This document shows positions 2,912 through 60,400 of a DNA stretch of 64,000 nucleotides, piece by piece. The translations under genes and the position numbers were made by a program. Positions within the stretch are counted from its first letter, which is position 1. The number at the start of each line of letters is the position of its first letter. The stretch comes from Tachypleus tridentatus (Eukaryota; Arthropoda; Merostomata; Xiphosura; Limulidae). Under the pieces are notes generated by a model. It saw only the letters and a list, made by a program, of their open reading frames with translations. It had not been told where the DNA came from and did not search any database. The DNA lies in the NCBI RefSeq assembly GCF_004210375.1, contig NC_134831.1, positions 44,984,035-45,048,034 of the forward strand, read 5' to 3'.

Positions 2912-3196
2912 GGCCTGGCATGGCCAAGCGTGTTAAGGCGTGCGACTCGTAATCTGAGGGTCGCGGGTTCGCATCCCTGTCGCGCCAAACATGCTCGCCC
3001 TTTCAGCCGTGGGGGCATTATAATGTAACGGCCAATCCCACTATTAGTTTGTAAAAGAGTAGCCCAAGAGTCGGCGGTGGGTGGTGATGACTAGCTGCCT
3101 TTCCTCTAGTCTTTCACTGCTAAATTAGGGACGGCTAGCACAGATAGCCCTCGAGTAGCTTTGAGCGAAATTCAAAAACAAACAAACAAAAAACAA
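2912..3196 (+). mobile_element. SINE A, full length, with target-site duplication
   Basis: The head is tRNA-like: A-box TGGCCAAGCG, an anticodon-loop-like CTCGTAA (CGT, threonine) and B-box GGTTCGCATCC. A long conserved body follows and then the tail GAAATTCAAAAACAAAC. The 12-bp duplication TACTGTAGACAT flanks it at 2900-2911 and 3197-3208. The tRNA cloverleaf is degraded, so this is not a working tRNA gene. Confidence 0.92.
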
Positions 3197-3208
3197 TACT
3201 GTAGACAT

Positions 3209-4078
3209 AGGAGGCAGTGACGTAGGTAAAGGTAGGTCAGAGAAGGTACCTGATAAGCACAAGGGATTGATTTTTTTTTAGTTCAAGGGATTGATAAAGA
3301 CTTTTATAGAAAATGGTCATAACTTAACTGTGTCAGGGATACTGCGAAGAATTAATTGTAGAGGATACTAAGGCTGAGTTCTAGGTTTAAGTTAATACGT
3401 AAAAATGAGCAGATTGGGTGTTTGGACTTGTTGGATCAATTTAATAGAATAAGGAAACTTTTTGAAATGGGTGGTTTACATTTAAATATAGTAAAGACTG
3501 ATTCGTTTGCAAGAACTATTAACTATTAACCAAACATGCTCGTCCTTTCAGCCGTGGGGGCGTTATAATGTGACGGTCAATCCCACTATTCGTTGGTAAA
3601 ATAGTTGACGGTGGATGGTGATGACTAGCTGCCTTCCCTCTTGTCTTATACTGTCAAATTGGGGCGGCTAGCACAGATAGCCCTTGTGTAGTTTTGCACG
3701 AAATAAAAAAAAACAAATAAAGAAACTCAGCTACAACGAAAGTTTTAAACTATGATAAACAATGGTGATGGTCAGGATAAACTAGGTGCAAAAACACACG
3801 ATGTACAGAAAAGTTTTGAATAGGAAATTATTATAAAAGTATCTCTAACGATAGGCTTAATTGTTACTATTGTAAAGTTAGAAGTAAAAACAAATATATA
3901 ATAGATTGCTTTTAGGGCACTAGTTATGGAGAATTTTAATATAATGGGAATAACGGAAACACAGTTAAATGTAGATAATTTTGATGACATAAAATTATTT
4001 GAAATGAAAGGTTATAAGCTATTTAATAGGGATACAGTACCATAGAGAGGAGAAGGAATAACTTTATATGTAAAATGT
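3209..4078 (+). mobile_element. LINE fragment, endonuclease end (CR1/L2-like)
   Basis: Around 3895-4078 the plus strand reads IMGITETQLNVDNF and then KGYKLFNRDTVP and EGITLYV. This matches the apurinic endonuclease domain of non-LTR retrotransposons (I-x-G-I-T-E-T-W-L, G-Y-x-L-F-R-x-D, G-G-G-x-x-L-Y-V). Stops interrupt the frame. The left part (3209-3530) is a weaker upstream segment, a SINE A fragment interrupts it at 3531-3724, and the hAT element cuts it off at 4079. Confidence 0.6.
3531..3724 (+). mobile_element. SINE A, 5'-truncated
   Basis: It begins inside the body at CCAAACATGCTCGTCC and runs to the A-rich tail. The tRNA head is missing, and an internal piece around TAAAAGAGTAGCCCAAGAG is deleted. 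Confidence 0.85.
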
Positions 4079-8100: not shown

Positions 8101-8500
8101 ACCTTCATTTTAACATTGTAAGTCCATAGACTTACCTGTGTTCTACCGTGAGACTTTTGTTTTAACGCAAAACCACGCAATACGCCGTGTTCTGTTCACT
8201 GGAGGAAGTGGATTTTAGCACTGATGTCAGTAAACTTAACACTAAGCTCACTGGGAACCTCTGTTTTTCATAACAGTATAGAATCAAAGTAAGTGGTATT
8301 TAATATCTATAGGCCAGCATCAAAGTTTTATTCGTGATATCAGGAACAACATATATGCTCAAGAAATATTGATAAAAATTATGAAAATCCTCTAACCAAA
8401 GCGCTTTCTTCTTCAGGGGCAAGCTAAGAATAGTGGTGTAATCCGATGAGTGATATGGAAAGGGAGTTGAGTGACGTCATCTGGTCTTCCAGGAATGTTT

Positions 8501-8766
8501 GTTTGAACTTCACGCAAAGTTACACGAGGGCTATCTGCGTTAGTCTTTCCTAATTTAGCAGTGTAAGAGTAAAGGGAATGTAACTAGTCATCACCGCTCA
8601 CTGCCAATTCTCGGGCTACTCTTTTACCAATGAATATCGCCATTGACCGTAACATAATAACGCCTCCAAGGCTGAAAGGGCGAGCATATTTTGCGCGAAG
8701 ACGATTCGGACCTGCGACCCTCAGATTACAAGTCGAGTGCCTTAACCATTTGCCTGTGCCGGGCCC
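8501..8766 (-). mobile_element. SINE A, full length, minus strand
   Basis: The reverse complement runs from GGGCCCGGCACAGGCAAATG through the body to the tail at 8501. Flanking repeats AGGAATGTTT (8491-8500) and AGGAAATGTTT (8767-8777) look like a slightly diverged target-site duplication. Confidence 0.88.
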
Positions 8767-11339: not shown

Positions 11340-11597
11340 TCAGAAAGTTTGGTTTTTGAATTTCGCGCAAAGCTACACAAGGGCTATCTGCCTAGCCGTT
11401 CCTAATTTAGCAGTGTAAGACTAGAGGGAAGACAGTCACCACCACCCACCGCTAACTCTTGGGGTACTCTTTTACCAATAACAGATTGATAGTAATGTTA
11501 TATACGCCCCCACGGATGAAAGAGCGAACATGTTTCGTGTGACGGGGATTCGAATCCGCGACCCTCAGATTACGAGTCGAACGCCCTAACCACCAGT
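11340..11597 (-). mobile_element. SINE A, minus strand, nested in the Penelope-like element
   Basis: Starts with GAATTTCGCGCAAAGCTACA (tail) and ends with the tRNA-like head (GATTACGAGTCGAACGCCCT). The Penelope-like frame continues to its right. Confidence 0.88.
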
Positions 11598-15334: not shown

Positions 15335-18300
15335 CTGAAGAACAAAAAAAAAAAAAGTGTATTTCTATAGCATCTAGGCAGCTAACCTCATTCAAATGAA
15401 AAAAAAAAAAAAACATTTTTATAACTACCAAAACTGGAAATTTACTAGTTATTCAATGAGGTAACAATTATTTGCTGTTCTACTGTATAATTTCTTCTAA
15501 ATAAATTTTTACACTACGAAAATAAAACTAGAGTTTTACACAAATTAGAGAAACCCTATAGACAGAGTGATTTTGGATGTTGTTGTTATTGTCTTTTGGC
15601 ATTTTATGATGCAAAGCAACTAGGCTATCTGTGCCAAACAAATGGTAAAAAACAAACAGTAAAATTATTATAAAGTGTAAAAGGAAATCAAGTTAAAACA
15701 AAACCAGTGTCCCAATGTCTGATAAAAATTGAAATAAAATTAAAAAGACCAATGGCCCTTACAAAGTTAAAAACATTTGTAATGTGGACAGTGTTACCAT
15801 TGCCAATGACACTGTCCAAAATCAGGGATAAACCCATGGTAAAAACATGTCACCTTCCCCTCAGAGGTCACCACATACAACAAACATTTGAGTGGATGTT
15901 CAGATCCAAGGGGAGGTAAACTGAAAGTACAGAACCTTTTCTGGAGGTCCCCTCACCATGTATAGGAATCCACCTTGAGGGGCCAGTTAATGGCATTAAT
16001 TTTTTACACTTTCACTATAAAAAAAAAAAGAAGTCAAATTGTGACACTACACAGCCAGGCTCACTAAGGACATTAAAATGAGTGTAAAGAAAGTTCAATG
16101 AATGGCATTAATTTTTTAAATTTTGATTGCAAACAAAAGTAAAATAGTGACATTATATTTTAGTCTCGATTGTTGACCAAGTAAAACTTAAAGTGGCATT
16201 ACTTTTAAACTGACTATGCATAAGTATGGTTAGTGATATAATATAGGTATTAATTTAACACTATATTTGGGCAACAAGTGGAAGTTGATGTTCAATTATT
16301 CTCACACGGAACTAATCTCCCACTTTGTTTAATGTAGACATCTTCAAGTACAACAATTTAGGGTTAAGTTACATATTTTAATCCTGAACTGTTGTAGACA
16401 AAAATTTACCATACACACAATGTTGTATAACAATGGAACAAGCTGAAAATAAGATTAATACTCTTTAATGGGTTTCTCCTTATAAATATTCATGAAACTA
16501 TTCTACTGAAACTAAATTAACTGATTTTCTGTTAAAAATAATTGTCTTTAGATTTCATATGATAAACAGATATAAGTTTACTATTTGTTAAGAAAAGCTG
16601 TTATGCTACTAGGTAAGCTCTTTACACAGATTAAAATAATTCATAAGGTGGAAATCAAAGTATAATAACAAATACCAAAGTAAAAGTATTATGCAATAAT
16701 GTTTACATATCTTTTAAGTTTTTTTTACCAAGTTTTTTGGAAGTATCAAAAACCTAAGAAATAATTAATTTTACAAGCATCAATAACATAATAATCTTTA
16801 GAACAAGTTTTTGTTGTTACCATGGAACTTTAGGAAGAACTCATTAAAATAATTCAGATATTATAATTTTACAGTACAGGCTAGAAGAAACCATACAAAC
16901 ATGTGGAAGCTGAAAAATAAATGAAATATCTTAAGACTTAGTGGTACTTAGCAGTGTTTAAGCAGCATGTTATAAAAGTCAGTGCTTCCTATCTAGCTAG
17001 GTCTAGTCATAATTAAACAGGAAACTTCTTGTTTGTGTTAAAGATGTTTACAACTTAATGGTATTATGTATTATTTTTCATCCACGTCAACCAATTTCTA
17101 AAAACCACAGGTATCACCAAGTTAGTTAGAAATCAACATTTATTTCATATAACTTTCTATTTAGTAATGAAATTTTTTGAACTATTAAAGAATAACATTA
17201 ACTTGCCATAACTATTTTTTACTAAAGCAATCTTACCTGAAGCAACAGTAGTCGTGTTTGTAGATCATAGTGTAATAATTAACATATCAAGTAAAAGCCA
17301 CATTATCACTGAGACAAATTACACATGAATAATAGATACCACTGTGATTAGTTTTGTAACAAGTCACCATTAGGACACACTTGTGAGTGATGTACAAGCT
17401 GAATGTATGCATACCATCGCGTACAGTCACATAAATAAAATAAGTACCACAAATATTTTGATTACTTAGATAGTTGGAATAATCAAAAACAGTAATAACT
17501 GGAACTACTGATTCTGATTAATTTGATATTTTGTATATTACAACACTAATTGATTACTCTGAACTAATAAAAAATAATGATAATAAACCATAATGGGAAT
17601 ATTTCAGTTACTTGACAAGTTTACATGACACTAACTGATGTTCAAACATAATAATAATGATAATAAACCATAATGGGAATATTTCAGTTACTTGACAAGT
17701 TTACATGACACTAACTGATGTTCAAACATAATAATAATGAAAATAAACCATAATGGGAATATTTCAGTTACTTGACAAGTTTACATGGCACTAACTGATG
17801 TTCAAACATAATAGGTTATTTTAAGTGATTGATCTAATCATCCAGTTCTATTTAATACATTTACTAATTTTGTCTTTAGTTATGAATTAGTCCATAACAA
17901 TTGAAGTTTCTAACATGAAATATTATACAGTAATAGATCAAGTTCCAAAATGTTGAGTCAACACACATATTTTCCTTTTAACTGCTAAGCATTATTTGCT
18001 TCCTCGTGTGTTTTGCAGGATTCCTGTAAAAATTACCAATTAAGTATACTATTGAGATTCTGTTCATTATAGTATCATAAGGCTATCAAAAAAGTATCTT
18101 ATAATTTGTCAAGATACATAATAATTTGAAGTTTAGGTTGAAGGTTGGGAGAAAATGACAGTACTTATGGTATCTCTTGTGATTCTGCTAAGTATGTGTT
18201 TTCTGAAACCATTATTTTAAGATACTGAGCTATAATTACAATATAGAATTATTTAAGCACTATAAGGATAATCAAGTGAGAAAATTAATTATTATGACAT

Positions 18301-24300: not shown

Positions 24301-27300
24301 AAAGTTAAATCATTTTTAAATTAAGCCATTTCCTATTATATCACCAACATTTCAAATACAAAACAAACATCTTTAATTAATGGAGACTCTACGTTAAGAA
24401 ACCAACAAACATTTTTCTTGTTTTCTTTTCTACACATTTCCTTTTACACTTTCAGTATACAAACTAACAATAATATTAGGTTACGTTTTGTTGCAGCAAC
24501 ATGACATAAAAGCCATTTTCAGAATGAGGTGTTACAAACACACTGGCTTTTATATATTAGAAGTTGTTAATTTAACCAACCTTTACCAGGAATTAATCTA
24601 TGAATATGCCACAAAGGAAATTATTGATGTCTGACTTCCCAGCTACACTTTTCTGCCCTTTTTTTTTAGTCAAGCTTGATTTTGCAAAATGTATTTGTTT
24701 CAGTTATCTATGAAACAGAAGGTTATGGTATACCATGGGGTAAGGTTGAGAGTACTTTACTCATCATTTTTGACAGGCTATAGATTTGTAAGTTCATATT
24801 TACTAACAAACTATCAATCCTTGAGAATGTAATCCTAAAGGTTTAGTTTCTAACATCATTTTCCTGTTCTTTCTCTGATTTAAATAGTACAGCATCTCAT
24901 TCACAACCTTGTAGAACTTAGCAGCATGTGATCTGAAAACTGCTAATGTAGGCCTCAACAAATCTGGGGCAACAGGTTGACAAGGCAACTAAAAACTCCA
25001 TCATTGTGCTAGTATTTTATCCAATTTTATTCGTGTTCAGGGCTGTGCTAAATAGGAACTCAAATCTAGCATAGAACAATGGACAATAACTGAAGATGAG
25101 TGAAATCTTAATGTGTATTTAATTTGTCTACCACTATAACTCTATTATACCATGCAACTATTTACAAACTTCATAACACAAATGCAAAAATTGTCAAAAG
25201 GAGAAACAATATTCCTTCCTCAGGCAGTGCTGCTCTGAACAGTTAATCCCAAACTTTTCCCAACTCAAATTATCCAAACACTTGAACCAGTTTACAGGTA
25301 TTATACCAAATATGCAATGAAAACTAAAAACTACCTTGAATACTAAATACCAAGAACTAAATTACTTACTAAAATGTAAACATGAATTAGATCACCAACT
25401 TGCCTGCTACCTCAAACCAGATGTATAGAACGATATACAAGAGGCCATTAACCAAAGCAACTCCATACAAAATCAAAAAAAGATTCTGCACACAGCAAAA
25501 AACTGGAAGCTAGAAAACTAAAACATGAAAGGTAATACAACAATGAGCCCAATCTAATCTTGTTATCAACAGATCAGATATACCACTAAATGACTCTGAC
25601 CTATAGCTTCTTAATAAAGGCCTCATTACTGTAGTTAACCAAATTGAAAACTAATATCATAAGCAACAAGATAAAAGATATTTTACAACCTGAAATAAAA
25701 ATACCAACTTAAAATGTATAGAAGCTGACAGTCAATACTACCGTAATCATGAACAACACAAAATACATTGACAAGATGAACATCTTTTCAGAAAAAGAGA
25801 GTTTCAAATCCACCCCAAACAATCCAACAAACAGATGAAAAAAACTACTGAACAAAACCTTGTCTCAAATGAAGAAAGACAACTTGATTACTGAAAATAT
25901 TTATTTTTAACTGATTCACATACACCACAACTTTATGGCATTCCCAAACTACACAAATGAGACTGTCCCATATGACCTATACTATCCACTGATGGCTCAT
26001 TTAACTATTATCTTGGTAAACACATGGTCTGGGCCCTCACACCTTACATAACTTTTGCAGGTTCCATCTCTGAATTGAGAATTGCATTAAACCAACTCAA
26101 CCTTAAAGCCTTAATGGCTAGCTTTGATGCTGTATCACTTTTCACAGAAGTCCTTGCCAAAGAAGCTTGTAATATTACACTTGAGACTTACAGTGATGAC
26201 AGAAAGTGTTTGTACCTCTGTGTCGTGAGTAGTTTTTCCTCATAACTCAAAAAGTATCATGATTAGGATAATGAAAGTATAGTGTATTATAAATATTATA
26301 CTAACACACATCTACATAAATTTTTATGTAATTGAACAACAAATAAACTGTTTATAAACAAATAATCAAACATAGGAGGGGCAGAAAGTGTTCATGCATC
26401 TACTTTAATGGTCAGTTGTGTAGCCTCTTAGGTGAATTACTTGGTGCAATCTTTCCTCATAGCCCTCCATGATCGTTTGACAGTACTCGACTGGTGCTTT
26501 CTTCCATTCTTCTTCAAGAAGGCCTCTAACTCTTGCAAGTTTTTTGGATGATGCTGATGAACCCTGGTCTTCAACTCATGCCAAACGTTTTCAATTGGGT
26601 TGAGATCGGGTGACTGCGATGGCCACTCCAGAACGCTTATATGTTTCCTCTGCAACCAGGATTGCACATATTTCAACGTGTGCTTAGGGTCACTGTCGTG
26701 CTGGAAGATCCAACAATGCCTGAGCTGCAAGTTCTGAGCATCATTCTTGATATAAGTGCCTGATATATCAACATACTCTTCTTTTTCATGATTCCATTGA
26801 TGGGGTGAAGGAACCCCATAGCATGATCAAGCTACCTTTATGTTTAACAGTAGGGATGGTGTTATGTGGAAGAGTTCATTCCCCTTTCTTATGGAAAATA
26901 TAGCAAACATCATTGTAGCCGAAAAACTCGATTTTAGTCTCGTCTGACCAAAGAATACTCTTCCAATAGGTAAAGGTTTTATCTACATGCTTTCTTGCAT
27001 ACCTCAATCGTGCTTCTAAATGAACAGGCTTTAAATATGGAGTTCTACGAGGATGGCATGCTTTGAACTCAAAAGAGCGTAAAATTTTTGTAACTCTAGA
27101 AGTGCTTACCTCAATCGTGCTTCTAAATGAACAGGCTTTAAATATGGAGTTCTACGAGGATGGCATGCTTTGAACTCAAAAAAGCGTAAAATTTTTGTAA
27201 CTCTAGAAGTGCTTACTTCAACCCCAGTTTCCCTTACCAGTTTCTGTATGTCATTATGTGTTAAAAGATGGTTCCTACTAACTTCTTTGAGAACCTTCCT

Positions 27301-33965: not shown

Positions 33966-34017
33966 TATCACTGTGCTCAGGTTTTGTAATTTTGTTCCGA
34001 GTTCTTTTAGTTTTGCT

Positions 34018-34233
34018 TTTTTTTCAATTTCACGCAAAGCTACACGAGGGCTATCTTCGCTAACTGTTTCTAATATAGCAGTGAAAGATTAGAGGGAGAG
34101 CAGCTATTCATCACCACCAACCACCGACTCTTGGGCTACACTTTTACCAACGAATAGTGAGATTGACTGTACCATTATAACGCCTCCACTGCTGAAAGGG
34201 CGAGCATGTTTGGTGTAACGAGGATTCAAACCC
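34018..34233 (-). mobile_element. SINE A, minus strand, head-truncated
   Basis: Tail at 34018, body in order, then the B-box region (GGATTCAAACCCTCG), where it stops and SINE C sequence begins. Confidence 0.85.
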
Positions 34234-34235
34234 TC

Positions 34236-34322
34236 GTACATTGGGGAACCCAGGGAGGGGAATTGAACCGCTAATTTTAGGATTGTAAATCCAAAGACAT
34301 ACCGCTGTACAAGCGGGAGAAC
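34236..34322 (-). mobile_element. SINE C (tRNA-like) head, minus strand
   Basis: GGGGAATTGAACCGC (B-box, reverse), GGATTGTAAATCC and ACCGCTGTACAAGCGGGAG match the head of the SINE at 42395-42505. It abuts SINE A without a spacer, so the two may have inserted at one site or formed a hybrid. Confidence 0.6.
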
Positions 34323-34636: not shown

Positions 34637-35270
34637 CTGTTGTAAATTGGCCAAATGAATTAATTAGAGATATTGATCAAATGTGTTTTTAAATAAAAGT
34701 TTAAAAATTACAAAATAGATATGTTCCTTATATGTATATGTATATCTATATACATAGTGAGAGAGAGAGAAAAAATGGGTGCACTTAAATACTAGGTTGG
34801 ATTTCAAAGAGTGTAAGGGATGAAATAAATAGAAGGATCAAAATGTAAAACATTTAAAATTACTGCTATGATAGAAGACTTGAAGAATTATAAAATTTCA
34901 AAACAGTTGGTCAAACTTGACATTGGTAAATCGAAAATTATGTGAAAATGACTGGCTGAAAGTATAAAATCTAAGAATAAATATTGTTATTAATGCATTA
35001 AGGATAAGCTGAGGGTTAGGATGAGATTAAAGTTTTCAAGGGTTGATAAAGGAAGGCTTATTACCGATTATTATGAGACGATTTGGTTATTAACATATAA
35101 TTCTCTTTCAGTATCTAGGAATGAACGTTCAAGCAATATTTTTAATCCTGAACAGTTTTTATACAGAAACGAGATTAGTTTATAAATGATCGCATTAGAC
35201 CTGAATATATTAAGGAACAATTGAAAAGAGTATTTTTGTTTGTTTGTAACCACGTAGGTGTCGTCTCTTG

Positions 35271-35556
35271 GCTTGTTTGTTTGTTTTTGGAATTTCGCAC
35301 AAAGCTACTCGAGGGCTATCTGTGCTAGCCGTCCCAAATTTAGCAGTGTAAGACTAGAGGGAAGGCAGCTAGTCATCACCACCCACCGCCAACTCTTGGG
35401 CTACTCTTTTACCAACGAATAGTAGGATTGACTGTAACTTATAACGCCCCCACGGCTGAAAGGGCGAGCATGTTTGGCGCGATGGGGATGCGAACCCGCG
35501 ACCCTCAGGTTACGAGTCGCACGCCTTAACACGCTGTTTTCAAACATGCCGGGTTT
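35271..35556 (-). mobile_element. SINE A, minus strand, in the LINE
   Basis: TTTGTTTTTGGAATTTCGCA (tail) through the complete body to the head; the tRNA-like A-box region is altered (ACACGCTGTTTTCAAACATG). It causes much of the 138-aa antisense frame at 35401-35817. Confidence 0.88.
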
Positions 35557-35997
35557 GAAAAGAGTTAACAATGATAAAGTTACTGGGAGAGATAATGTTT
35601 CCTTATTTGTTTGAAGAGAGTTAAGAATTGTATATGTGTATATTGATATTTTTAGTAAGTAGTTGAATAGTAGACAGATGTCAGATGATTGGAAGGTGAT
35701 TAATATATTGCTAATATAACAGAAACGCCTAATTACGCTATGTAAAACAAGTTTTGTTCCTGGATAGTTAGTGTTATTTCTTAATTGCTTATGTTGTAAA
35801 AGTACAGAAAATAGCAATTATTCCCTTCAAATTTTGCTTTTGTGAACTGAATAATGAAATTTAGAAAGTAACCTATTTTTTATGTAAAAACGGCCAAATT
35901 TGCACATTTTCGTTTACATAAGGTCTGAATAAAACAACATATGAATCAAGATTTACACGTATTTATACTAAAGCTATACAAAAATGAATAAAGATGT

Positions 35998-37193
35998 TTA
36001 GAAGTGAGTAGTTTCTCGAGATTTACGATTGTAATGTAAATCACTTTCACGTACCAGCCCCCAAATATAGTCTCCCTTCATGTTTTCGTTATACGCTCCT
36101 TGGTAGCGGCGTTTAAAGTCCAGTATATCTTGGTGGAAGCGCTCTCCTTGCTCCTCTGAGTATGCTCCCATGTTCTCCTTGAATTTATCAAGATGAGAGT
36201 CGAGGATATGGACTTTTAGGGACATCCTGCAGCCCATTTTGCCATATTTCTTTACCAGAGCATCAACCAGTTCCACATAAGTTTCGGCCTTGTAATTGCC
36301 CAAGAAGCCCCGAACAACTGTGACAAAGCTGTTTCTTTTTCCTGGCCCGGCATGGCCAAGCGCGTAAGGCGTGCGACTCGTAATCTGAGGGTCGCGGGTT
36401 CGCGCCCGCGTCGCGCCAAATATGCTCGCTCTCCCAGCCGTGGGGGCGTTATAATGTGACGATCAATCCCACTATTCGTTGGTAAAAGAGTAGCCCAAGA
36501 GTGGGCGGTGGGTGGTGATGACTAGCTGCCTTCCCTCTATTCTTACACTGCTAAATTAGGGACGGCTAGCACAGATAGCCCTCGAGTAGCTTTGTGCGAA
36601 ATTAAAAAAAAACAATTTTTTTCCTTCCTACTGAGCTTCTTGGAGAATTCTGTGTACTCCAGGATCTTCTTTGTTTGTGATCCAACGAAGACACCAGCTT
36701 TGCCTCAGACAGCTTAGGGAAAAGTCTCGAAGGTACTTGAAGACTGCAGATTCCTGATCAAGAGCTGTGACAAATTGTTTCTAAGACCCATCTTTGTGTG
36801 CAATGGTAGGAACAACACCTTCTGGAGGTCCACTAGTGACTCACACTTTACATTGCGCCACCTCACAGAGAACTTGGTCCGTTGTGGCCAGTATTTCCTG
36901 TTGTAGTGCGCTGCAGTGTCTCTGCTGTCCGAAAGGCAAAGATAACAGGGAAACTTGGTAAAGCTTCCTTTGAGAACCATCAGGAATGACACCATTTTGA
37001 AGTCTCCGATAATCTCCCAGCCATACTCGTCATACTTCATGGTTTCCAGCAAGGTCTTGACGCTGTTGTGTTTCTCTCTGAGATGCACTGAATGAGCCAG
37101 GGGAAAGAGACAGATACTTATTCCCGTTATGGAGCAGCACAGTTTAAGGCTTCTGCATGCGTCTGGAAAATGCTTGCAGCTTGTTGATGCCAT
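35998..37193 (-). pseudogene. Unnamed transposon protein with GERFHQD motif, broken
   Basis: Minus strand. The first part (37193-36714) has PLAHSVHLREKHNSVKTLL, YGWEIIGDFKMVSFLM, a C-x2-C plus distal H pattern (CYLCLSDSRDTAAHY) and VLFLPLHTKMGLRNN. The second (36303-35998) has GNYKAETYVELV, MSLKVHILDSHLDKF, EEQGERFHQDI and RRYQGAYNENM, then the stop. I recognise this order from a protein family repeated in arthropod and cnidarian genomes, but cannot name its function. A frame slip after STFETFP and the SINE insertion break it. Invariant His, Glu and Asp residues in the second half could form a catalytic site; that is inference. The N-terminus is shorter than in relatives I recall. Confidence 0.65.
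36344..36612 (+). mobile_element. SINE A, full length, inside the TIR element
   Basis: CCCGGCATGGCCAAGCGCGT head, B-box GGGTTCGCGCCC, full body, A-rich tail. Copy 2 of the TIR element has the empty site here, where coding runs through, so this insertion came after the copies separated. Confidence 0.93.
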
Positions 37194-38215
37194 TTCTGAT
37201 AAAATAAGATAGGTCTATGTGTTCACTTAGGCAGCTAGAACTCAACTGAAGTGGTGAGTGGTGAGTCCCTGTATATATATATATATATATATATATATTA
37301 CTATGGAATGTTCTAGAAAATTCTAAAAGGTTCTTGAAATTTCTCGTAAGTTCTACAACATTCTAGAGAGTTCTTAAAAATTCTTGTAAGTTTGAGAAAA
37401 TTCTCCATCAGCTATTCAGCACTGAATCTACCTGGAATGTTCTGGAAAAATGAGTAAATTTGAAAATTTCATTACCCTGATCACAAAAGCAAAGTTTGAA
37501 GAGACAAATAGGTCTTTCTATTTACTTTAAGCATAAGCAATTGGGAAATAACACTTTCTGCCCAGGAACAAGAAAAAGTAAAAATTTTGTTACGTAGTGT
37601 TATCACAATAATTAGGAGTCTATTAATTTTACAGTAGTGGTGGGAAATGTTTTTGAAAATCTGATAAAAAGCTTCAAAGTTTCCTTTAACAAAGTTGTTG
37701 AAGTCAACATTGTTTCACTAAGAAAAAATCTTTCTTTACTAATATTTTGATATTTTATCAAGATGTTACTTCTTTTGTAGATGAGGGTATGGGTGTGGAT
37801 TTGCTTTACCTGGATTTTTAGAAAGCATTTAAGAAAGTGTCAAACAAAAGGCTCGTTTATTATAGTTTTCTCTGTTGGCGTGGTTCATTGTATAAAAAAT
37901 ATCTAGATGAAAGAAAGCAACTCAGAGGTTGTTATGAAAGAAGATCAGTCTTACTGGATTAAACTCATAAGCAGGATACCTCAGAGCTCAGTTTAAGGAT
38001 CCTTGTGTTTCTTATTTACATAAGTGCATAAATGCAGTAATGAACAAAAAGTACTTTAGCTTATAATATTAATGTACTGGATGTTGCGAGCTTTGATGAG
38101 AACACTGTCGCTGAAGAAAATGATATATGTTATTTAATGAGTGGACATACAAATGGCAGATGGATTTTAATTATAATAAATGCAAGGAAATACATGTTTA
38201 TTATAATATGAATTA

Positions 38216-43433: not shown

Positions 43434-43703
43434 CCCGGCATGGCCAGGTGGATTAAGGTATTTGACTCGTAATCCAAGGGTCGCGGGTTCGAATCCCCGT
43501 CACACCAAATATGCTTGCCCTTTCAGCTGTGGGGTCGTTATAATATAACTGCCAATTCCACTATTTGTTGGTAAAAGAGCAGCCCAAGAGTCGGCGGTGG
43601 GTGGTGATGACTAGCTGTCTTCCCTCTGGCCTTACACTGTTAAATTAGGGACGGCTAGCGCAGTTAGCCCTCGTGCAGCTTTGCGCGAAATTCAAAAAAC
43701 AAA
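43434..43703 (+). mobile_element. SINE A, full length
   Basis: Head CCCGGCATGGCCAGGTGGAT, B-box GGGTTCGAATCCC (consensus-perfect), full body and tail GCGCGAAATTCAAAAAAC. Its intact promoter boxes suggest a relatively young copy. Confidence 0.93.
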
Positions 43704-44473: not shown

Positions 44474-44740
44474 TATGGCTTACTCGTTAAGGCGTGCGCT
44501 TCGTAATCTGAGGGTCGCGCGTTCGCGCCCGAATCGCGCCAAACATACTCACCCTCCCAGCCGTGGGGGCGTTATAACTTCGGTCAATCCCACTTTTCGT
44601 TGGTAAAAGAGTAGTCCAAGACTTGGCGGTGGGTGGTGATGACTAACTGCCTTCCCTCTAGTCTTACACTACTAAATTAGGGACGGCTAGCATAGATAGC
44701 CCTCGAGTAGCTTTGTGCGAAAAAAAAACGAACAAACAAA
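44474..44740 (+). mobile_element. SINE A with target-site duplication, 5' end slightly short
   Basis: Flanked by the 11-bp repeat CTTAAGTGTGT at 44463-44473 and 44741-44751. The head is altered (TATGGCTTACTCGTTAAGGC). Downstream, 44752-45195 is T-rich sequence with no gene; its long hydrophobic frames are composition artefacts. Confidence 0.92.
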
Positions 44741-48400: not shown

Positions 48401-51400
48401 ACAGAGATTAGTGTGTTTTTATTAATTTTTGGGGTAATTATTCTGCAAAAGCATATTTTGAAGAAACTTAATTTCTGCTCCGAGGTTTTCTTTCGAAAAC
48501 GTGTTGATGGCATTTTTATTTAGTGTTTCCATAATGCTTTTTTTAAAGCTTGAATTAAGTACTTTAACTGGTAGTTAATTTTTGGTTACCATGTGTATTA
48601 CTTCTGTAGACAGATCTTGTGAATTCTGTTATAGATTTATTTTTGGTCACTTTCACGCCCACTTATGAAAATTATAGATAGTTCTAAACTGCTACTTTTA
48701 TACGCCTGTAATCTGAAATCAGTATTGAATATTTAAAGTAATATGAGTAAAAATATCAACGGTCAAATATGGTTTTGTCATATTTCTCGGTTCCATTGAA
48801 ACGTTTTTTCAATGTGAAATACAAGTACAGTGTATAGATGTACAATACCATCATCTTGTATTATATTAAATACAATGCATTTAATACTACTTATTGTTTG
48901 AGATCTTGGCTTTGGTTGCTGGGATAATGAAGAAATTTGCGAGAGCTATCCAGTAGGTGTCAATATATCTCCCATTTTGTCTTATGTTACAATATTTATA
49001 AATATTTTAAAATAACGTCGCGTGCGTAGATAATCCATTTAAATAGCTTTTTACACAGATACTTATGACGTCATTTTGTGACTTCTTCATGCTCCAGTGG
49101 GAAAAATGAAAAATCTTGACTTGGGGTCACGACTTGAAAGTTGGGAAATATTGACCTAAATATAGCAAAAGATAACCATATATAGAACCAAAATATTATT
49201 TACCTTCCGTGAATGCTCCAGGAAAGTTCAGATGTTCATACCAAAATCTGTCTCCATACTTCATTGTTGCGAATTGTCGAGCGATCAGGCACGCAAACGT
49301 TGGTCCTACCAAACCACCTTGAACATGTTTTTCAATGGTGCCACCAATAATCAGGTCTATGTCTTCTACACGTCTGTGAATGAAAGTTCAAGAAATGAGG
49401 AAAATACAATGTATTTAATATAATTTCCCAAAGTATTTTGTAACTGAACGAGAGATCTGCCATTTGACATCTTTTGTAACGTGCAATACTCGGCCATTAG
49501 AAATAAATTCAAGCTAAACTTTTAGCTAATTAAATTTTCAGCATACACTACCTTTGTCAGTCAGATGTAAATATCAGTAAAGTTCAGAATATTCTGATTC
49601 ATTTTAACTGACGAGAGCCAGTTGAAGGATGTAGCATGGAAATTCAGAAAATTCCTGTATACTGCGCCTGGTGATAACCATTTGTAAAGTGCAACAAATG
49701 GCTTCAGAACTTTTTAACACGTTGTTTCTGATAGAAATGTAGCAGCAAAATTCTTAGAATTCTGTATGCAGTGTCTGATCACATTTATTTGAAAATAAAT
49801 TCTTATAACGCATTTAAGGCCTCAAAGTGTGGAGTACGATTTTCTTTTTTTTCCATTTTTTTGTTTTGTGATAACGATTTGTGAGCCGCGAAATCTTAAT
49901 TTCATAGTCCGAATAGCCATGCATGGGCCTGAGTCATTTCAGTTTCTAAAATTATATTTAAGTTATTTTTTATACACAGAAAGAAAACTAAAGCATGCTT
50001 TCAAATTTTCAATAAATTAAGAGAACCACGTTCTTAACTCGAAATTTACTTTCGAGGCACTGTCATATTTCGATAAAAGCTAGATTCAGATGCATATCCA
50101 ATTAGTGCAAACAAAAGAAACAAATTCTGACATACTTGTATATCTTCTTCAGTTTCTCAACAGCATCGTAAAGCATTTCATTTTCAAGTTCTTCGAAGTT
50201 TGTGATTGGTTTAAGTTTACACCATTCCCGCCACCTCACATAACTAGGCAGCCCGTGGTCTCGGCCACGTTGGATGTCAGTTGCTAACATATCAATTCCA
50301 ACAACACTTCGAGAAGACGACATAAGATAGTGTTTCATCTAATAAAAGAATAATAATAAATATGTTACTTTTCTTATACTTTAAGCAATAACGTACACTA
50401 CAAATTACTGGTTTGTTATAGTTCTGAAACGGATTCTTTTAATCGAAAAATAGTGTGCCATTAAACGTTAAAATAATGCATCAGGATACTTACTATTAAG
50501 TACTAAAACCACGATACATAATACTTTGTCACAGATTACCAGAATCATGAGTCAAATAGTATACTATACTGCGTAATGATTATGAACTAGACAATTTATT
50601 ATAAACTACCACAATCATGAACCAGGCATGATAACTACAGAATATAGTAACCATGGGCCAGGCGTGGTAACTAAGGAATATAATAGCCATGTATCAGCCA
50701 TGGTAACTACAGAATATAGCAACCATGAGCCAGGCGTGGTAACTACAAAATATAAGAACCATGAGTCAGACATGGTAACTAAAAAAATATACTAACCATG
50801 AGCTAGGCAAAATAACTAAAGAATATAAGAATCACGAATCAGACATAGTAACTACAGAATATATTAACTATGAGCCAGGTGTGATAACTATAGAATATAA
50901 GAACCACGAGTTAGACAGCTTCAAACAGAGTATCAAAACTACGAGCAAACACTGTAGTATGTAATATCAGAACTATCAGCCAGAAACTTTGCACTGAGGC
51001 TAATGTTTTCGGATATTCAGGTAAAACAAAACAATAAATTAATTATTCAGATATTATCTCTGCAGTGAATTCAGTACCTCATTGTAATGGTCTCCAATGC
51101 CATATCTACTAGCGACTCGGGAAACAGAAGAGTTATCCAACTAAGAAGATAAGGAATCATCTTCATCCTCTCCATCTAGTAGTTTTATTCCTGTGACACC
51201 TCAACACAAACTGCCCCATATGATTATTATTCAAGAAGAGCTAAATGACGTGATTATTGACTTGTATCTATCAAGGAACATAGGAAACTTCTTGGTTTTC
51301 GTTTACAGCAACGGAATTTACTTGTTCCAGGAACAAGAGTTTTAATTTACCACAGTCGCCATCAATGTCTTGATTCTTATTAGAGCATGCAAGATACTTT

Positions 51401-54400
51401 ATATTTATGTACACATTTTGATACCTTAATGGACGAATTAAGTATTGAACTTCATCCTCAAGAATGGAAACGTTTATAAATTCATCTGAAGCTAGTCTGA
51501 AAGTTGTACTTTTTCACAATAGGAATGCTAAGCCTGTTGCTTATGTGAACACAAAAGAAAATTATTAAAGAATGCAAATTTTATTTGAAGCCATTAAATA
51601 TGATCACCATAGGTGGAATATGTGCGGTAATCTGAAAGTTTTTGTATTTTTCTAAGCCTGCAGATTAGATACATCGAACACTGCTACATTTTGTGTCTCT
51701 AGGACAGTCGAAATAATAAAAATCATTTCAAATGAAGGAATGGCAAGTGAGAGAGAATTACATACCAAGGGAACAAAATTTCGAGTATTAACCTTTTATG
51801 AATCCTCAAAATATGTTTATGCTCTTCTTCAGATTAAACTGGGACTAATTGAGAATTTTGTAGAACGAATGAACAAAGATGGAAATGGTTTCAGATAGCC
51901 GTTTGACAACTTTCCAAAAATCAGTGAAACAAAAATAAAATAATGTGTCTTTCTTGGATCACAGATCAGGAAAATGCTGATGTAAAATGATTTTGAAACA
52001 GCACTCAGTCACAAAGAACTTTCTGTCTGGCAATAATTTACATTGGTTGCCAAATTTTCTGTGATGGTAGATGATGTGCTCGAGAACTACAGAAAAACGT
52101 GGTCTAAGATTTCACTAAAATATGCATTTCTTACACTCCCATTCAGACTTATTTTCAAATGATCTACGTGCAATGAGAAATGAGCATGGTGAGTGCTTCC
52201 ATCAAAATATTTCTGCAATGACAAAGTAATATCCAAGATGAATGAATCCTGCTATGAAGAAAGATTACTATTGATTCTTACAATATGAAACTAAGAATAC
52301 TCACAGAAGACGTAAAACGTCAACAAGGTATTTTGTAACAGAAAATAAAAAATAACACTGTGATAAAAGTTCTAAACATAACTTCAAGGTATTTTCAGTA
52401 TATACGTTTCTTATAATTATTGATTTGTTAAACTGGTAATACTATTATGCATTGTTTTGGAATATCCTTAAATGCAATTTTTAAAGAAAAATAAAGTTAT
52501 TAAAGAAAGAAAATGTTATGTATATGATGTATAAGAATATCTTAAATACATTTATTACAACTAGAAACAAGAATTTTAGAATCAGAATTCAAAAGTGACT
52601 AAGAAACAGTTGCATTTGTTCCTGGAAGCGGAGATGTTTTGTTATTCTTTTTGTTCAAGTTAATGAGAATCAGAACTATGAGCCAGACGGTTTAAAACTG
52701 AGAATCAGAACTATGAGCCAGACAGTTTACTCCTGAGAATTAGAACTAGCAGCCAGACAGTTTAGTCCTAAAAATTAGAACTATAAGTCAGACAGTTTAG
52801 TTCTGAAAATCAGAACTATAAACCAGACAGTTTAGTCCTGAGAATCAGAACTATGAGCCAGACAGTTTAGTCATGAGAACCAGAACTATGAAACACACGG
52901 TTTAGTCCTGAGAGTCAGAACTATAAGCTAGAGAGTTTAGTCCTGAGAATTAGAAATATGAGCCAGACAGTTTAGTCCTGAGAATCAGAACTGTGAGCCA
53001 GATAGTTTAATAGAGAGTATCAGAACTATGAGCCAGACAGTTTAGTGCAGAAAATAAGAACTGTGAGCCAGATAGTTTAGTCTTGAGAATAAGAAATATG
53101 AGCCAGACGGTTTGGTACTAAGAACCAGAACTGCGAGGCACATAGTTTTTAGTCCTGAGAATCAGAACACTGACCCGGATGGTTTAGTACTGAGAAGCAG
53201 AATTATGAGCCAGACGGTTTATTACTGTAAATCAAAACGATGAGACAGAAAGTTTGGTACTGAGAATTAGAACTGAGAGCCAGACAGTTTAGTCCTAAGA
53301 ATTAGAACTATGAGCCAGACAGTTTAGTGATGAGAGTTAGAGCTATGAGCCAGATAGTTTAGTCCTGAAAATTAGAAATATCAGCAAGACAGTTTAGTCC
53401 TGAGAATTAGAAATATGAGACAGACAGTTTAGTCCTGAGAATCAGAACTGTGAGCCAGACAGTTTAGTCTCGAGAAACATAACTAAGCGCCATATAGTTT
53501 AGTACTGAGAACTATAACTATGAGCTAGACGGTTTAGTGCTGGGTATCAGAACTGTGAGTCAGATAGTTTGGTACTTAGTATCAGAACTGTGAGCCAGAT
53601 AGCTTTTAGTCCTGAGAATCAGAACTATGAGATCGACGGCTTAGGACTGAGTATCAGAACTGTGAGTCAGACAGTTTAGTCTTGAGAATTATAACTATAA
53701 ACCAAGTAGTTTAGTCTTGAGAATCATAACTAAGCGCCAGATAGTTTTGTCCTGAGAATCATAACTATGAGCCAAACAGTTTTGTACTGAGCATCAGAAC
53801 TATGAGCCAGAAGTTTAGTACTGAGTATGAGAAATATGAACCAGACAGTTTAGTACTGTGTATTAGAATTGGAAGCCAGATAGCTCAGTAATGAAAACCA
53901 GAATCACGAACTATGAGTCAAATGAAATCATTGTGATTATATCCTTCCTTATACTTTTCACTGTATATGTCAAAACGGCTGATATGAGTAGGGAAAACTA
54001 TATGTAGAGGAGCGAACAACGTTTCGACCCTCTTCGGTCATCGTCAGGTTCACAAAACATAAAGCTTTCTCTATTCATACCAGACATTTTTACATATATA
54101 TATTTTTCAAGTGGGTTTTCTCGTCATCACGGATTCGTTATATTTTGTATGAAATAAAAAGTTATTAAGAAAGAATTTCATTTCATACGTCGGTTTTCGT
54201 CATTTTTTCTTGTGAACAAACATAAAATTAAATTGAACCGTGTTAGAAAGCTACTCTTATGAATGAAATAAACTTTAATGTAGGCTAAATGTTAAGATTA
54301 TTTAAATAATAATGATTCGGAAAGAGAGTGACGAAAGGAGAGAAGCGAAATTACTCTGCGATTAGTTTGGTTCTTGAATAATACAAATTCTATTTCTTTC

Positions 54401-57400
54401 CCTGTAGATAACGTATGTGCGTTCTGGAAATATTATTTTAACTGTAACATTTTAAAACAAGTACTTTATTAATTTCTTTTTAAACATGACACTTCACAAT
54501 AGGCTGTCTTTTTTTGTGCCCACAGCAGAAATTTAGCATTGTAAGTCCTTTAGTTTACAGACAAATCACTGGCTTTATAGTGTGGTGATTTCTAACTATA
54601 TTATAGTAAAATATAATTACCCATTAAACACTCGTAATAATATAAATATTTATATTAAACCAGATAACGTCTTGACATACACCCTTGTGCAAATTAATTG
54701 AAACAAGACGGAAAACTACGATTTTGTCAATTTTTTGCGTTTTATTTCTGAGAATTCAAAAATAACTCACAAATTAATACATGATATGACCGCCTTTATT
54801 TTTCAGAAGATCATTAATCTGCTTTGGCATCGAGTCCACGAGTTGACTGCAATCTTTACTAATTTTTGGATTGCGGTACCACACCTCAATTATGGTCTCC
54901 ATTAGCTTATCTTTCGTAGTACAGTCTTTTCCCCGAAGTCTTTCTTTTCAAATCATCAAAAGATTTTCAATAGGATTTAAGTCCGGAGAGTTTCCAGGCC
55001 AGTCCAGCACCTTTATTCGTGTTGTATTCATAAAATGCTTCACAAGTTTCGATGTGTGGCACGGAGCCAGATCTTGTTAAAATATGCCAGATTCTTCTGG
55101 AAATCTCTTTTTCAATTCTGGAACGACTTTTCTCTGCAAAACTTCAATGTACTGTGGTCCTCGCATCATATCTTCTACGATATGTAAGCCTCCGACGCCA
55201 TAGTAGCTGAAAAAGCCCCAAAACATTTTCTTCAATGGATGTTTTACGAACTGATTGATGTGAGATTCTCGAAGTTTCTCACCTGGAGATCTGCGAACAT
55301 TCAGACTTCTTTGACTCAGTACGAAGAAGTGAGTCTCGTCACTGAATAACACCTTCCTTCATTGTACTTGCGTCCAGTTCTTGTATTTAAGACCCTACTG
55401 ATACCGTTTTTTCTTCATTGAGTAGGTAAGAAGTTGCTTTTTGACTGGTCTCCTTGCCCTTCTAACACAATTTTGAATGTCGTAATATTCCTCAAAATTT
55501 CGTCATATATCCCAAAAATAGATCGACCGTACTGCAAAACACAGTTAATGACGCCGTCTGTGTGAAAAAATGACTATTAAAGGAAATCAGCGGGACCAGC
55601 GAGTCTGCACCGACCGCCATGCTAAAAATATTGAAAAATGACCATTTGTTTCAATTAATTTGCACAAGGGTGTAAATGATAAATGTATAACAAGAAACTG
55701 CATGAAATACCTAACTATAAAACTATTTCTGTTTTCGAATCTAATATCAGCACAGATCGCCCTCGTGTAGCTTTGCGCGAAATTCAAAAACAAAAACAAA
55801 CGAACCTAATACCACATGTAGAAATTATTTACAAGGAATGATTATTATAACTTAAAGTAATTTATTTAAACGTTGTTGCTGTTAAGGAGTTGAAAATAAT
55901 ATAACATTCTCATGATTTCTGTATGTGTTATTTCTTAATTACTTATGTTGTAAAAGTACAGAAAATGGCTATTATTCCCTTCAAAATTTGCTTTTGTGAC
56001 CAGGGTAATGAAATTTAGAAATTAACCTAATTTCTATGTAAAAAACGGCCAAATTTGCACATTTTCCTTTGCATAAGAGGCCTGGCATGGCCTAGCGCGT
56101 TAAGGCGTGCGCTTCGTATTCTGAGGGTCGCGGGTTCGCGCCCGAGTCGCGCCAAACATGCTCGCCCTCCCAGCCGTGGGGGCGTTATAATGTTACGGTC
56201 AATCCCACTTTTCGTTGGTAAAAGAGTAGCCCAAGAGTTGGCGGTGGGTGGTGATGACTAGCTGCCTTCCCTCTAGTCTTACACTGCTAAATTAGGGACG
56301 GCTAGCACAGATAGCCCTCGAGTAGCTTTGTGCGAAATTCCAAAAACAAACAAACAAACCTTTGCATAAGGTCTGAATAAAAAAACATATGAATCAAGAT
56401 TTACACGTATTTATACTAAAGTTATACAAAAATGAACAAAAATGTTTAGAAGTGAGTAGTTGCTCGAGATTTGCGACTGTAATGTAAATCACTTTCACGT
56501 ATCAGCCCCCAAATATAGTCTCCCTTCATGTTTTCGTTATACGCTCCTTGGTAGCGGCGTTTAAAGTTCAGTATATCTTGGTGGAAACGCTCTCCTTGCT
56601 CCTCTGAGTATGCTCCCACGTTCTCCTTGAATTTATCAAGATGAGCGTCAAGGATATGGACTTTTTAGGGACATTCTGCAGCTCATTTTGCCGTATTTCT
56701 TCACCAGAGCCTCAACCAGTTCCACATAAGTTTCGGCCTTGTGATTGCCCAAGAAGTCCCGAACCACTGCGTCAAAGCTGCCCCGAGCTTTATTTTCCTT
56801 CCTACTGAGCTTCTTGGAGAATTCTGTGTACTCCAGGATCTTCTTTATTTGTGGTCCAACGAAGACACCAGCTTTGCCTCAGATAGCTTAGGGAAAAAGT
56901 CTCGAAGGTACTTGAAGGCTGCAGACTCCTTATCAAGAGCTGTGACAAATTGTTTCTAAGACCCAACTTTATGTGGAATGGTAGGAACAACACCTTCTGG
57001 AGGTTCACTTGTGACTTACACAGAGAATTCGGTCCGTTTTGGCCAGTACCTCCTGTTGTAGTGCGCTGCAGTGTCCCTGCAGTCAAAAAGGCAAAGATAA
57101 CAGGGAAACCTAGTAAAGCTTCCTTTGAGACCCATCAGGAATGACACCATTTTGAAGTCTCCGATAATCTCCCAGCCATACTCGTCATACTTCATGGTTT
57201 CTAGCAAGGTCTTGACGCTGTTGTGTTTCTCTCTGAGATGCACTGAATGAGCCAGGGGAAAGAGACAGATACTTATTCCCGTTATGGAGCAGCACAGTTT
57301 AAGGCTTTTGCATGCGTCTGAAGAATGCTTGCAGCTTGTTGATGGCATCTCTGATAAAATAAGATAGGTCTATGTGTTCACTTAGGCAGCTAGAACTCAA

Positions 57401-60400
57401 CTGAAGTGGTGAGTGTTGAGCTCCTGTATATATATATTACTATGGAATGTTCTAGAAAATTCTAAAAGGTTCTTGAAATTTCTCGTAAGTTTTACAATAT
57501 TCTAGAAAATTCATGTAAATTTAAGAAAATTCTCTATCAGCTACTCAGGACTGAATTTACCTGAAATGTTCTGGAAAATGGGTAGATTTGAAAATTTCAT
57601 TACCCAGGTCATAAAAGTAAAGTTTGAAGAGAAAAAATAGGTCTTTCCATTTACTTTAGGTATAAGCAATTGGGAAATAACATTTTCTGTCCAAGTCAGT
57701 TGTAAAGTTGTAAAAGTAAAAATTTGGTTACATAGTGTTATCAATGACATCCATATTTAAACCATATTATAATTCCTTTATGATTTGTCTAAGGCTGTGA
57801 TAGTACCCTTGTTTGATATACAACAGACACATTCAGTGTTTCACATATTCAACTGGATATATATTATTACAACAAATAAATTCACTACATCAGATATTCA
57901 ACTTGATATAGTACATGTTATTAGAGCCCGGCATAGCCAGGTGGTTAGGGCGTTCGACTCGCAATGCGAGGGTAGCGGCTTCGAATCCCCGTTGTACCAA
58001 GCATGCTCGCCCTGTCAGTCGAGGGTGCTTTATAATGTGACCGTCAATCTAAATATAACTGCCTTCCATCTAGTCTTACACTGCTAAATTAGGTACGGCT
58101 AGCGCAGATAGTCTTCGAGTAGCTTTACATGAAATTCAAAAAACAAACATATGTTATTAGAACAGAGCCATTTACAGCTAAATGCTCAATTGGATATATA
58201 TGATTAAAATAAGCTCATTCATTGCACCAGATGTTCAACTGAATAATTGTTATTGCAACAAACCCCTTCATCATCTCAGATACTCAGTTACATACCTATT
58301 GTTAGGATAAACTGATTCTACTGTTTTTGATGTTCAAGTAAACACACGTATTGCTAATTCCCTATTCCAGTTTCTAATGTGTTCAGTTGTATACATATTG
58401 TTGATTTGATGGAGTATTCATTATCACTCTTGAAGACCCTGTGTGATTATTTAAGTGAAAATCCATACAAATTAACTATCTACACTGTGTTTGTTTGTTG
58501 AATTTCGGGCAAAGCTACAGGAAGGCTATCTGCGCTAGCTGTCCCTAATTTAGCAGTGCAAGACTAAGGGAAGTCAGCTAGTCATCATCACCTACTGCCA
58601 ACGTTTGGACTACTCTTTTACCAACGAATAGTGGGATTGACTGTCACATTACGACGCCCCCTCGGCTGAAAGAGCGAGCATGTTTGGTGTGACGGGTATA
58701 CGAACCCGCGACTCTCAGATTACGAGTCGAGTGCCTTAATCACCTGGCCATGCTAGACCTACTGTGTTTGTTTTCCGCGGAAATCGAATTCTAAATTTTA
58801 GTGTCATGAATCCCAAAATTTTTCCAATGCGTCACTGGGAACAGATGAGATTTAAACAAATATTTTAATAAAAAAAAGAAGCAACTTCCGAAAGTGTGTC
58901 TGAACGTATTAACAATAGAGTTAAGGCAGCACAAGATACATAAATAAAATAATTTAAAACAGAAATCGTAACAAGTGGATAACCAAAGTATGACATGTTT
59001 CGAACAAAAACTTTGTATTAGATATAATGAATAAAGCGAGAAGCGATGCTTTTTTTTTTTCTATTTATATGTTTTCTTTAATGACAAAGCTGCGCAGGGG
59101 GTTATAAGCAAAGCTATCCATTTCATCATTAGGAAAGGATATGTGTGATCATTGTTGATAACATATTTATTGCTTGTTAAAGACTTTACATAGTTAGGAA
59201 TACAAAGTGGTTTATTTATATAAATAACGTACAATGTTAAAAGATATACACAATCATTTGTTTTTTCTCACGCCAATCTATAATCTATAACATTTTGACT
59301 TTACATGTTTCAACATCTTATAAGCCATGGATAGGCATGAGATAAAAATGTTTTTGATTGTTTAGCCATTTTAACATTGTAGGTTATTTATTTATTATAT
59401 TAACACAAGTGTCATAAAAATCTATTGTGTTTTATGTTTACCATAACCCTTACTTTTATGGCTTTTTTTATTTATAACCAGTCTTTTATGAGGTCGTACT
59501 TAACAGCGCGTTTTATACTCGAAAATAAACTTTATAGGGTTGCGTGATAACATATTTTAAATAGCTTAGTAAATGAAATAAGTGCCATGAAATTCACAAA
59601 CACACAGAAGTAAACCAAAAGTACTGCGTGAAAATTGTTTTCAAAAATCAAAGTATCAATTACAATGACAAAAAACCCACTTGAAGTTTGTTTGTATGTT
59701 TATGTTTTAATTTCGCGCAAACCTATGTGAGGGCTATCTGTGCTAGCCGTTCCTAATTTAGCAGTGTAAGACTAGAGGGAAGGTAGCTATTCATCACCAC
59801 CAATCGCCAACTCTTGGGCTACTCTTTTACCAATAAATAGTGGGATTGACCGTCACATTATAACACCCCCAGGACTTAAAGGACGAGCAAGTTTGGTGGG
59901 ATGGGGATTCGAACCCGCGACCCTCAAAGTACAAGACGAGCGCTTTAACCACCTGGCCATGCCGGAACCTCACTTGAAGTAAAAATGTTTTTTAAAGACG
60001 ACTGATGTGGGTATAAAAACTTTAACTAAAATAAAGTACAGAACAATGTTTCGACCTTCTTACGTCATCTTCAGGTTAACAAAGAGAGTTTGCAACTGAC
60101 CGTTGCCGGGCACATTTCTTAGGGACGAGAGCACAACATAAGTGGAGCTATTTTTTGATTTTGCGTTTGTATTTGTTTACGTATTTAGTGTATTGGTGTT
60201 TTCTTCGGTTACGTTGTGCCCTAAGACATGTGCCCAGCAACGGTCAGTTGCAAACTCTCTTTATTAACCTTACGGTGATCTAAGAAGGTTCAAACATTGT
60301 TCTGTACTTTATTTTAATTAAAGTTTTAATATCCATACCAGCCGTCTTTGGAATACATCAGGAGAACAGTGCAGAAGAATAGGGATAGCAGAAAAATAGC

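Follow-up and report, generated by a model that had tools for sequence, protein, structure and literature searches.

What kind of mobile element do the two copies of a GERFHQD-encoding sequence in this part of the Tachypleus tridentatus genome represent, and is its protein of a type already described? The region analysed, referred to here as the window, is the whole stretch of 64,000 nucleotides at positions 44,984,035 to 45,048,034 of contig NC_134831.1, and its features are numbered from its first letter. A first-pass annotation had proposed that the two copies belong to an unnamed type of DNA element encoding a cut-and-paste transposase. GERFHQD-type proteins are presumably abundant among the unnamed animal entries of sequence databases.

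Copy 1 is a non-autonomous deletion derivative of 1864 bp at 35736..37599, with its coding strand on the minus strand. It lies between two TTA target site duplications, neither assigned a strand, at 35733..35735 on the left and 37600..37602 on the right, and the limits of 35730-37604 given earlier for the element are corrected to exclude them. The alignment of its inverted repeats spans ~127 bp at about 76%, with the aligned part of the left terminal inverted repeat at 35754..35880 (plus strand) and that of the right at 37446..37571 (minus strand). The minus strand carries a transposase fragment with the second Asp (in GDF), the CxxC, and the LH region at 36714..37214, relative to which the segment holding the first Asp is out of frame, and a C-terminal fragment with H(4)H and EEQGERFHQD at 35998..36330. 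A SINE-like insert occupies 36349..36618 on the plus strand (ends approximate, from an alignment gap; match at 36365-36615). The AT-rich TTCTAGAAAATTCT tract that had been noted in both copies is present in both, with a 20-bp period, and in copy 1 occupies 37306..37404 (plus strand).

Copy 1 was thought to sit inside a LINE, and related LINE copies indeed run across the insertion point without the insert. When the flanks of copy 1 were joined and used for searching, 7 of 38 non-self matches crossed the joint. Six LINE relatives were fetched, and five continue through the joint while one (L107) is gapped there. In these five the joint has a single TTA only in L111 and a single TTG in the other four, followed by TC, in an alignment that is loose at this point because the LINE relatives are only ~70% alike.

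Copy 2, at about 55925..57737 on the minus strand, belongs to the same lineage as copy 1. Its inverted repeats lie at 55926-56034 and 57574-57682 and its right end is GTG followed by TTA. Inverted termini had been claimed for both copies; each does contain inverted repeats, but copy 2 does not have full inverted termini because its left end has lost the outermost ~35 bases. It retains a transposase fragment at 57016..57369 and a C-terminal fragment with GERFHQD at 56446..56664, both on the minus strand, and a SINE-like insert at 56078..56360 on the plus strand (ends approximate, from an alignment gap; match at 56094-56360). In a pairwise alignment the copies are collinear except for one SINE-like insert each, at different positions, and the window has exactly two stretches that match the GERFHQDI codon pattern, against none in 100 shuffles; this upholds the original observation of two copies with common coding blocks. 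In both, the minus strand encodes frameshifted fragments of one protein from which the first ~250-270 of 568 residues are gone.

The two copies are also related by descent. They share a frameshift after the LGL segment, a place that is intact in 9 of 20 other copies, while the remaining 11 could not be read with the exact pattern applied. When 22 copies were placed in a tree over 432 columns, copies 1 and 2 came out as sisters (99/95), with the bootstrap not yet fully stable; the copies were picked by likeness to copy 1, so that closer relatives may exist outside the sample. Of the inner branches of this tree, 15 of 19 lack resolution, as might be expected after a burst of transposition. Copies 1 and 2 descend from one element that was already broken, and neither encodes the whole protein as it stands. 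Given the break that they have in common, protein made by another copy must have moved one of the two or both. These sister non-autonomous elements with the same broken gene (35736-37599 and 55925-57737) are only 20 kb apart, a spacing that would fit a local hop as one possibility.

Relatives of the element are abundant in the genome. We searched 2.17 Gb, scoring only the best candidates of each first look. With copy 1 as query, a DNA search found 171 matches from the best 40 of 12,126 candidates, three protein searches gave 150 matches each from the best 150 of 9,374, of 9,867 and of 3,652 candidates, and a search with the protein of a full-length relative, L106, gave 91 matches from the best 77 of 21,471 candidates. 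These match totals are not copy numbers, because only the best candidates were scored. For analysis of the termini, 20 genome copies whose ends both match copy 1 were taken from the DNA search and combined with the two copies of the window. We identified the ends by their likeness to CACTATGTAAC and GTTACATAGTG, with up to 3 mismatches allowed, and could read them on both sides in 19 of the 22 copies (L043, L044 and copy 2 were left out).

The ends and their surroundings are highly regular. The element starts with CAC in 17 of the 19 copies, L034 and copy 1 having CGC, and ends with GTG in 16, the exceptions being L031, L034 and L036. The four flanking bases next to CACTATGTAAC are A (18/19), T (18/19), T or A (19/19) and A (17/19), those after GTTACATAGTG are T (17/19), T or A (18/19), A (15/19) and T (17/19), and the base bias is much weaker farther from the element. 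The target is ATWAT, with ATWA on the left in 16/19 copies, TWAT on the right in 11/19 and both in 9/19, compared with a background of 2.2% of outer-flank positions. An exact 3-bp duplication is found in 9/19 copies, where pairing the flanks of different copies gives an expectation of 5.6 (permutation p 0.05); with a target so constrained, the duplication is marginal by these counts alone. At single loci, TTA is duplicated on both sides of copy 1 and of L106. In L037, one of the copies in which the duplication does not match, a CACTATGTAAC outside the element is preceded by TAA, as in its segmental duplicate L038. This extra CACTATGTAAC lies just outside the element at about 470-510 of L037, with TAA before it, and L038 does not have the extra end.

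These data also bear on the possibility that the sequences are a multicopy host gene or its pseudogenes rather than a transposon, which would suit a protein that has no curated family. Copies without common inverted termini had been named in the first-pass annotation as the observation that would speak against a transposon; instead, copies genome-wide share their termini, and insert-free sites exist. The T that occupies the first base of the presumed left duplication in 18/19 copies counts against a gene, as does a full-length copy enclosed by inverted repeats. In addition, only for L037 and L038 among the 22 copies does the likeness of both flanks extend over most of 400 bases; the flank stretches common to other pairs are 40-280 bases long and presumably SINE sequence. 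We consider a host gene origin extremely improbable, and return to the transposon.

The full-length relative L106, chosen for its long frame, contains an element of 2,453 bp (266-2718). Its inverted repeats, at 262-374 and 2600-2722, enclose an open frame of 629 codons, of which 568 follow the chosen Met without a break, and its ends read ATTA|CACTGG...CCAGTG|TTAT, with TTA duplicated in ATTAT. All 568 residues are present without a stop in 9 of the best 77 candidates, L106 included, at 94-100% identity, and these unbroken, closely similar frames suggest that the transposon was recently active in this genome. Common termini, a constrained target, insert-free sites and a full-length relative with an unbroken frame enclosed by inverted repeats show that this is a DNA transposon, and very probably the protein is its transposase. 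The proposal of a cut-and-paste transposase is thereby upheld by the shared ends, the ATWAT target, the sites free of the insert and L106.

Along the L106 protein, Cys pairs near the N terminus (at 19, 63 and 99) are followed in order by D269 (LFID), D323 (CGDLK), C342xxC345, L390-H391, H499(4)H504 and GERFHQD at 520. Conservation was counted over the rows of a protein alignment that come largely from broken copies. D269 is kept in 18/23 rows and D323 in 20/27, C342 in 26/27 and C345 in 22/28, L390 and H391 each in 28/32, and H499 in 14/16 and H504 in 16/16, while E521 is kept in 13/16 rows and E518 in equally many. The C(2)C, LH, H(4)H and DDE motifs thus appear to be present and mostly kept, although each is short and weak taken alone. 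From this pattern, a catalytic triad may be formed by D269, D323 and a Glu near 521 in the EHGERFHQD segment. Conserved His, Glu and Asp residues in the second half of the protein had earlier been put forward as active-site candidates, a proposal that is only partly borne out. Of these a Glu of EHGERFHQD stays as a candidate; the candidate Asp residues, D269 and D323, lie upstream, and the LH and H(4)H motifs account for the His residues.

Searches of Pfam (E up to 10), NCBIfam and PDB sequences with the intact L106 protein found no match. One fragment gave Pfam lines for Interferon (E 0.016) and UBN_AB (E 0.29), both below the curated cut-offs, and the other fragments gave no Pfam lines; one fragment also gave two lines against PDB sequences (E 1.2 and 1.4), and PHROGs returned one line (E 0.2). 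Two AlphaFold models, based on 58-row and 38-row alignments of sequences of this genome, had mean pLDDT values of 51.2 and 54.0; they are too weak to reveal an RNase H or other nuclease fold, and the Foldseek list obtained with them (best E-value 0.85) was therefore set aside. The search of viral contigs for relatives was empty and a longer pattern had 0 matches there, and plasmids gave no match. Two viral contigs with the GERFHQDI codon pattern were rejected because their frames are unlike the family by eye, as were 15 stretches that matched in the genome contigs searched, none of which looks family-like in translation.

The TWA target would be consistent with a PIF/Harbinger element, since TWA duplication is typical of that group. 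PIF/Harbinger transposases have a Pfam model, DDE_Tnp_4, whereas the protein described here has a CxxC insert and lacks any match in Pfam at E values up to 10; the termini of the element, moreover, start with CAC. We therefore give an assignment to PIF/Harbinger almost no credence.

The window contains a third relative, absent from the earlier annotation, at about 51200..52345 on the plus strand (limits approximate). It is diverged and broken, reads EHGECFHQN, has several stops, and over 80 aa is 35% identical (E 7e-8) to the C terminus of copy 1. Part of it, used as a query, brought up the group to which L106 and many unbroken frames belong. No inverted repeats usable as ends were found around 51200-52345. 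Minisatellite arrays at 50616-50917 and 52664-53858, with 36-bp and 35-bp units that have ATGAGCCAG in common, flank the third relative in the same direction, as if it had been inserted into one array.

Other repeats in the window include a SINE-like repeat of up to ~270 bp, with about 13 copies counting the one inside each element copy; the others are at 2927-3189, 3530-3720, 8496-8746, 11347-11590, 34012-34236, 35270-35535, 43453-43703, 44486-44739, 57944-58149, 58488-58739 and 59688-59949. Its longer copies are 81-94% alike to the one at 35270, and our impression is that it is tRNA-derived. Two tandem repeats, at 17573-17813 (80 bp, 3.0 copies, 98% matches) and 26996-27221 (107 bp, 2.1 copies, 97% matches), are unusually alike between units and are therefore probably recent.

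In a working model of transposition, a complete element would make one protein of ~568 aa, in which the N-terminal Cys pairs perhaps bind DNA and a predicted DD...E core with a CxxC insert carries out catalysis. The protein would bind the inverted repeats and cut at CAC and GTG, and joining the element to ATWAT at a staggered break would then duplicate TWA.

These features can be set against published descriptions. According to the main text of one study, Chapaev transposons have CAC/GTG termini, and the Chapaev3 group (Merrow, Garfield and Conan) belongs to the Chapaev-Mirage-CACTA (CMC) transposons (PMC4079192). The Chapaev3 elements examined there duplicate 3 bp, TWA, preceded by A and followed by T, as confirmed by paralogous empty sites; Garfield measures 2,289 bp, its transposase has 556 aa and shows the motifs C(2)C, LH and H(4)H, and internal-deletion derivatives are described for these transposons (PMC4079192). 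The element studied here is filed as Chapaev3-type because its testable features agree with that text, save the duplication, which is marginal over 19 copies. It follows the description in its CAC/GTG ends, in TWA between A and T, in the three motifs, in size (about 2.3-2.5 kb, with 568 aa here and 556 aa there) and in its internal-deletion derivatives. With high confidence, we assign copies 1 and 2 to the Chapaev3 group of the CMC superfamily, as inactive cut-and-paste elements with internal deletions. Likened to Chapaev3 by published description only, the element is likely of that type and not a new enzyme family, and the label of an unnamed type is given up, since ends, target, duplication, sizes and motifs fit the Chapaev3 account.

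A distinct, undescribed transposase superfamily that shares Chapaev3 ends and target by convergence or deep ancestry would account for an intact protein without a Pfam match even at E 10, and the Chapaev3 comparison is one of published features rather than of aligned sequence. However, CAC/GTG, TWA between A and T, C(2)C-LH-H(4)H and the lengths of protein and element all fit the features given in PMC4079192, and we judge such a superfamily quite improbable. A further, somewhat speculative reading, for which we see a slim chance, is that the GERFHQD proteins form a transposase clade apart from all named Chapaev3 families, invisible to Pfam and recently or still jumping, with copies 1 and 2 recording a non-autonomous local hop. 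GERFHQD and six other peptide words of the family were not found in the papers searched. In one set of listed matches only PMC4079192 contains the word Chapaev3, and none of the matches listed deals with Chapaev in horseshoe crabs; the main text of PMC4079192 uses neither Limulus nor horseshoe, and the available text of the review PMC5745447 mentions Chapaev and horseshoe crab once each. The finding leaves known transposase mechanisms unchanged. It gives a likely Chapaev3-type transposase identity to proteins that match no model in Pfam or NCBIfam, and this genome, where candidates number in the thousands and several frames are unbroken, would be useful for studying the choice of ATWAT by CMC transposons.

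Among other known systems, Transib has a CACTATG-like end and a 5-bp duplication. The element resembles Transib in its CACTATG-like end and is unlike it in the duplication, which is not 5 bp (0/19 copies), and Transib was rejected. CACTA/EnSpm elements have CACTA/CACTG-like termini and a 3-bp duplication, both of which are seen here; in contrast to them, the present element matches no Pfam model and its target is confined to ATWAT. In the main text of PMC4079192, most Chapaev3 elements are said to have one frame, with Garfield and Merrow having two exons. Unlike Garfield and Merrow, L106 has one frame over 568 codons, and the elements of this genome differ from those described in PMC4079192 in host and in family.
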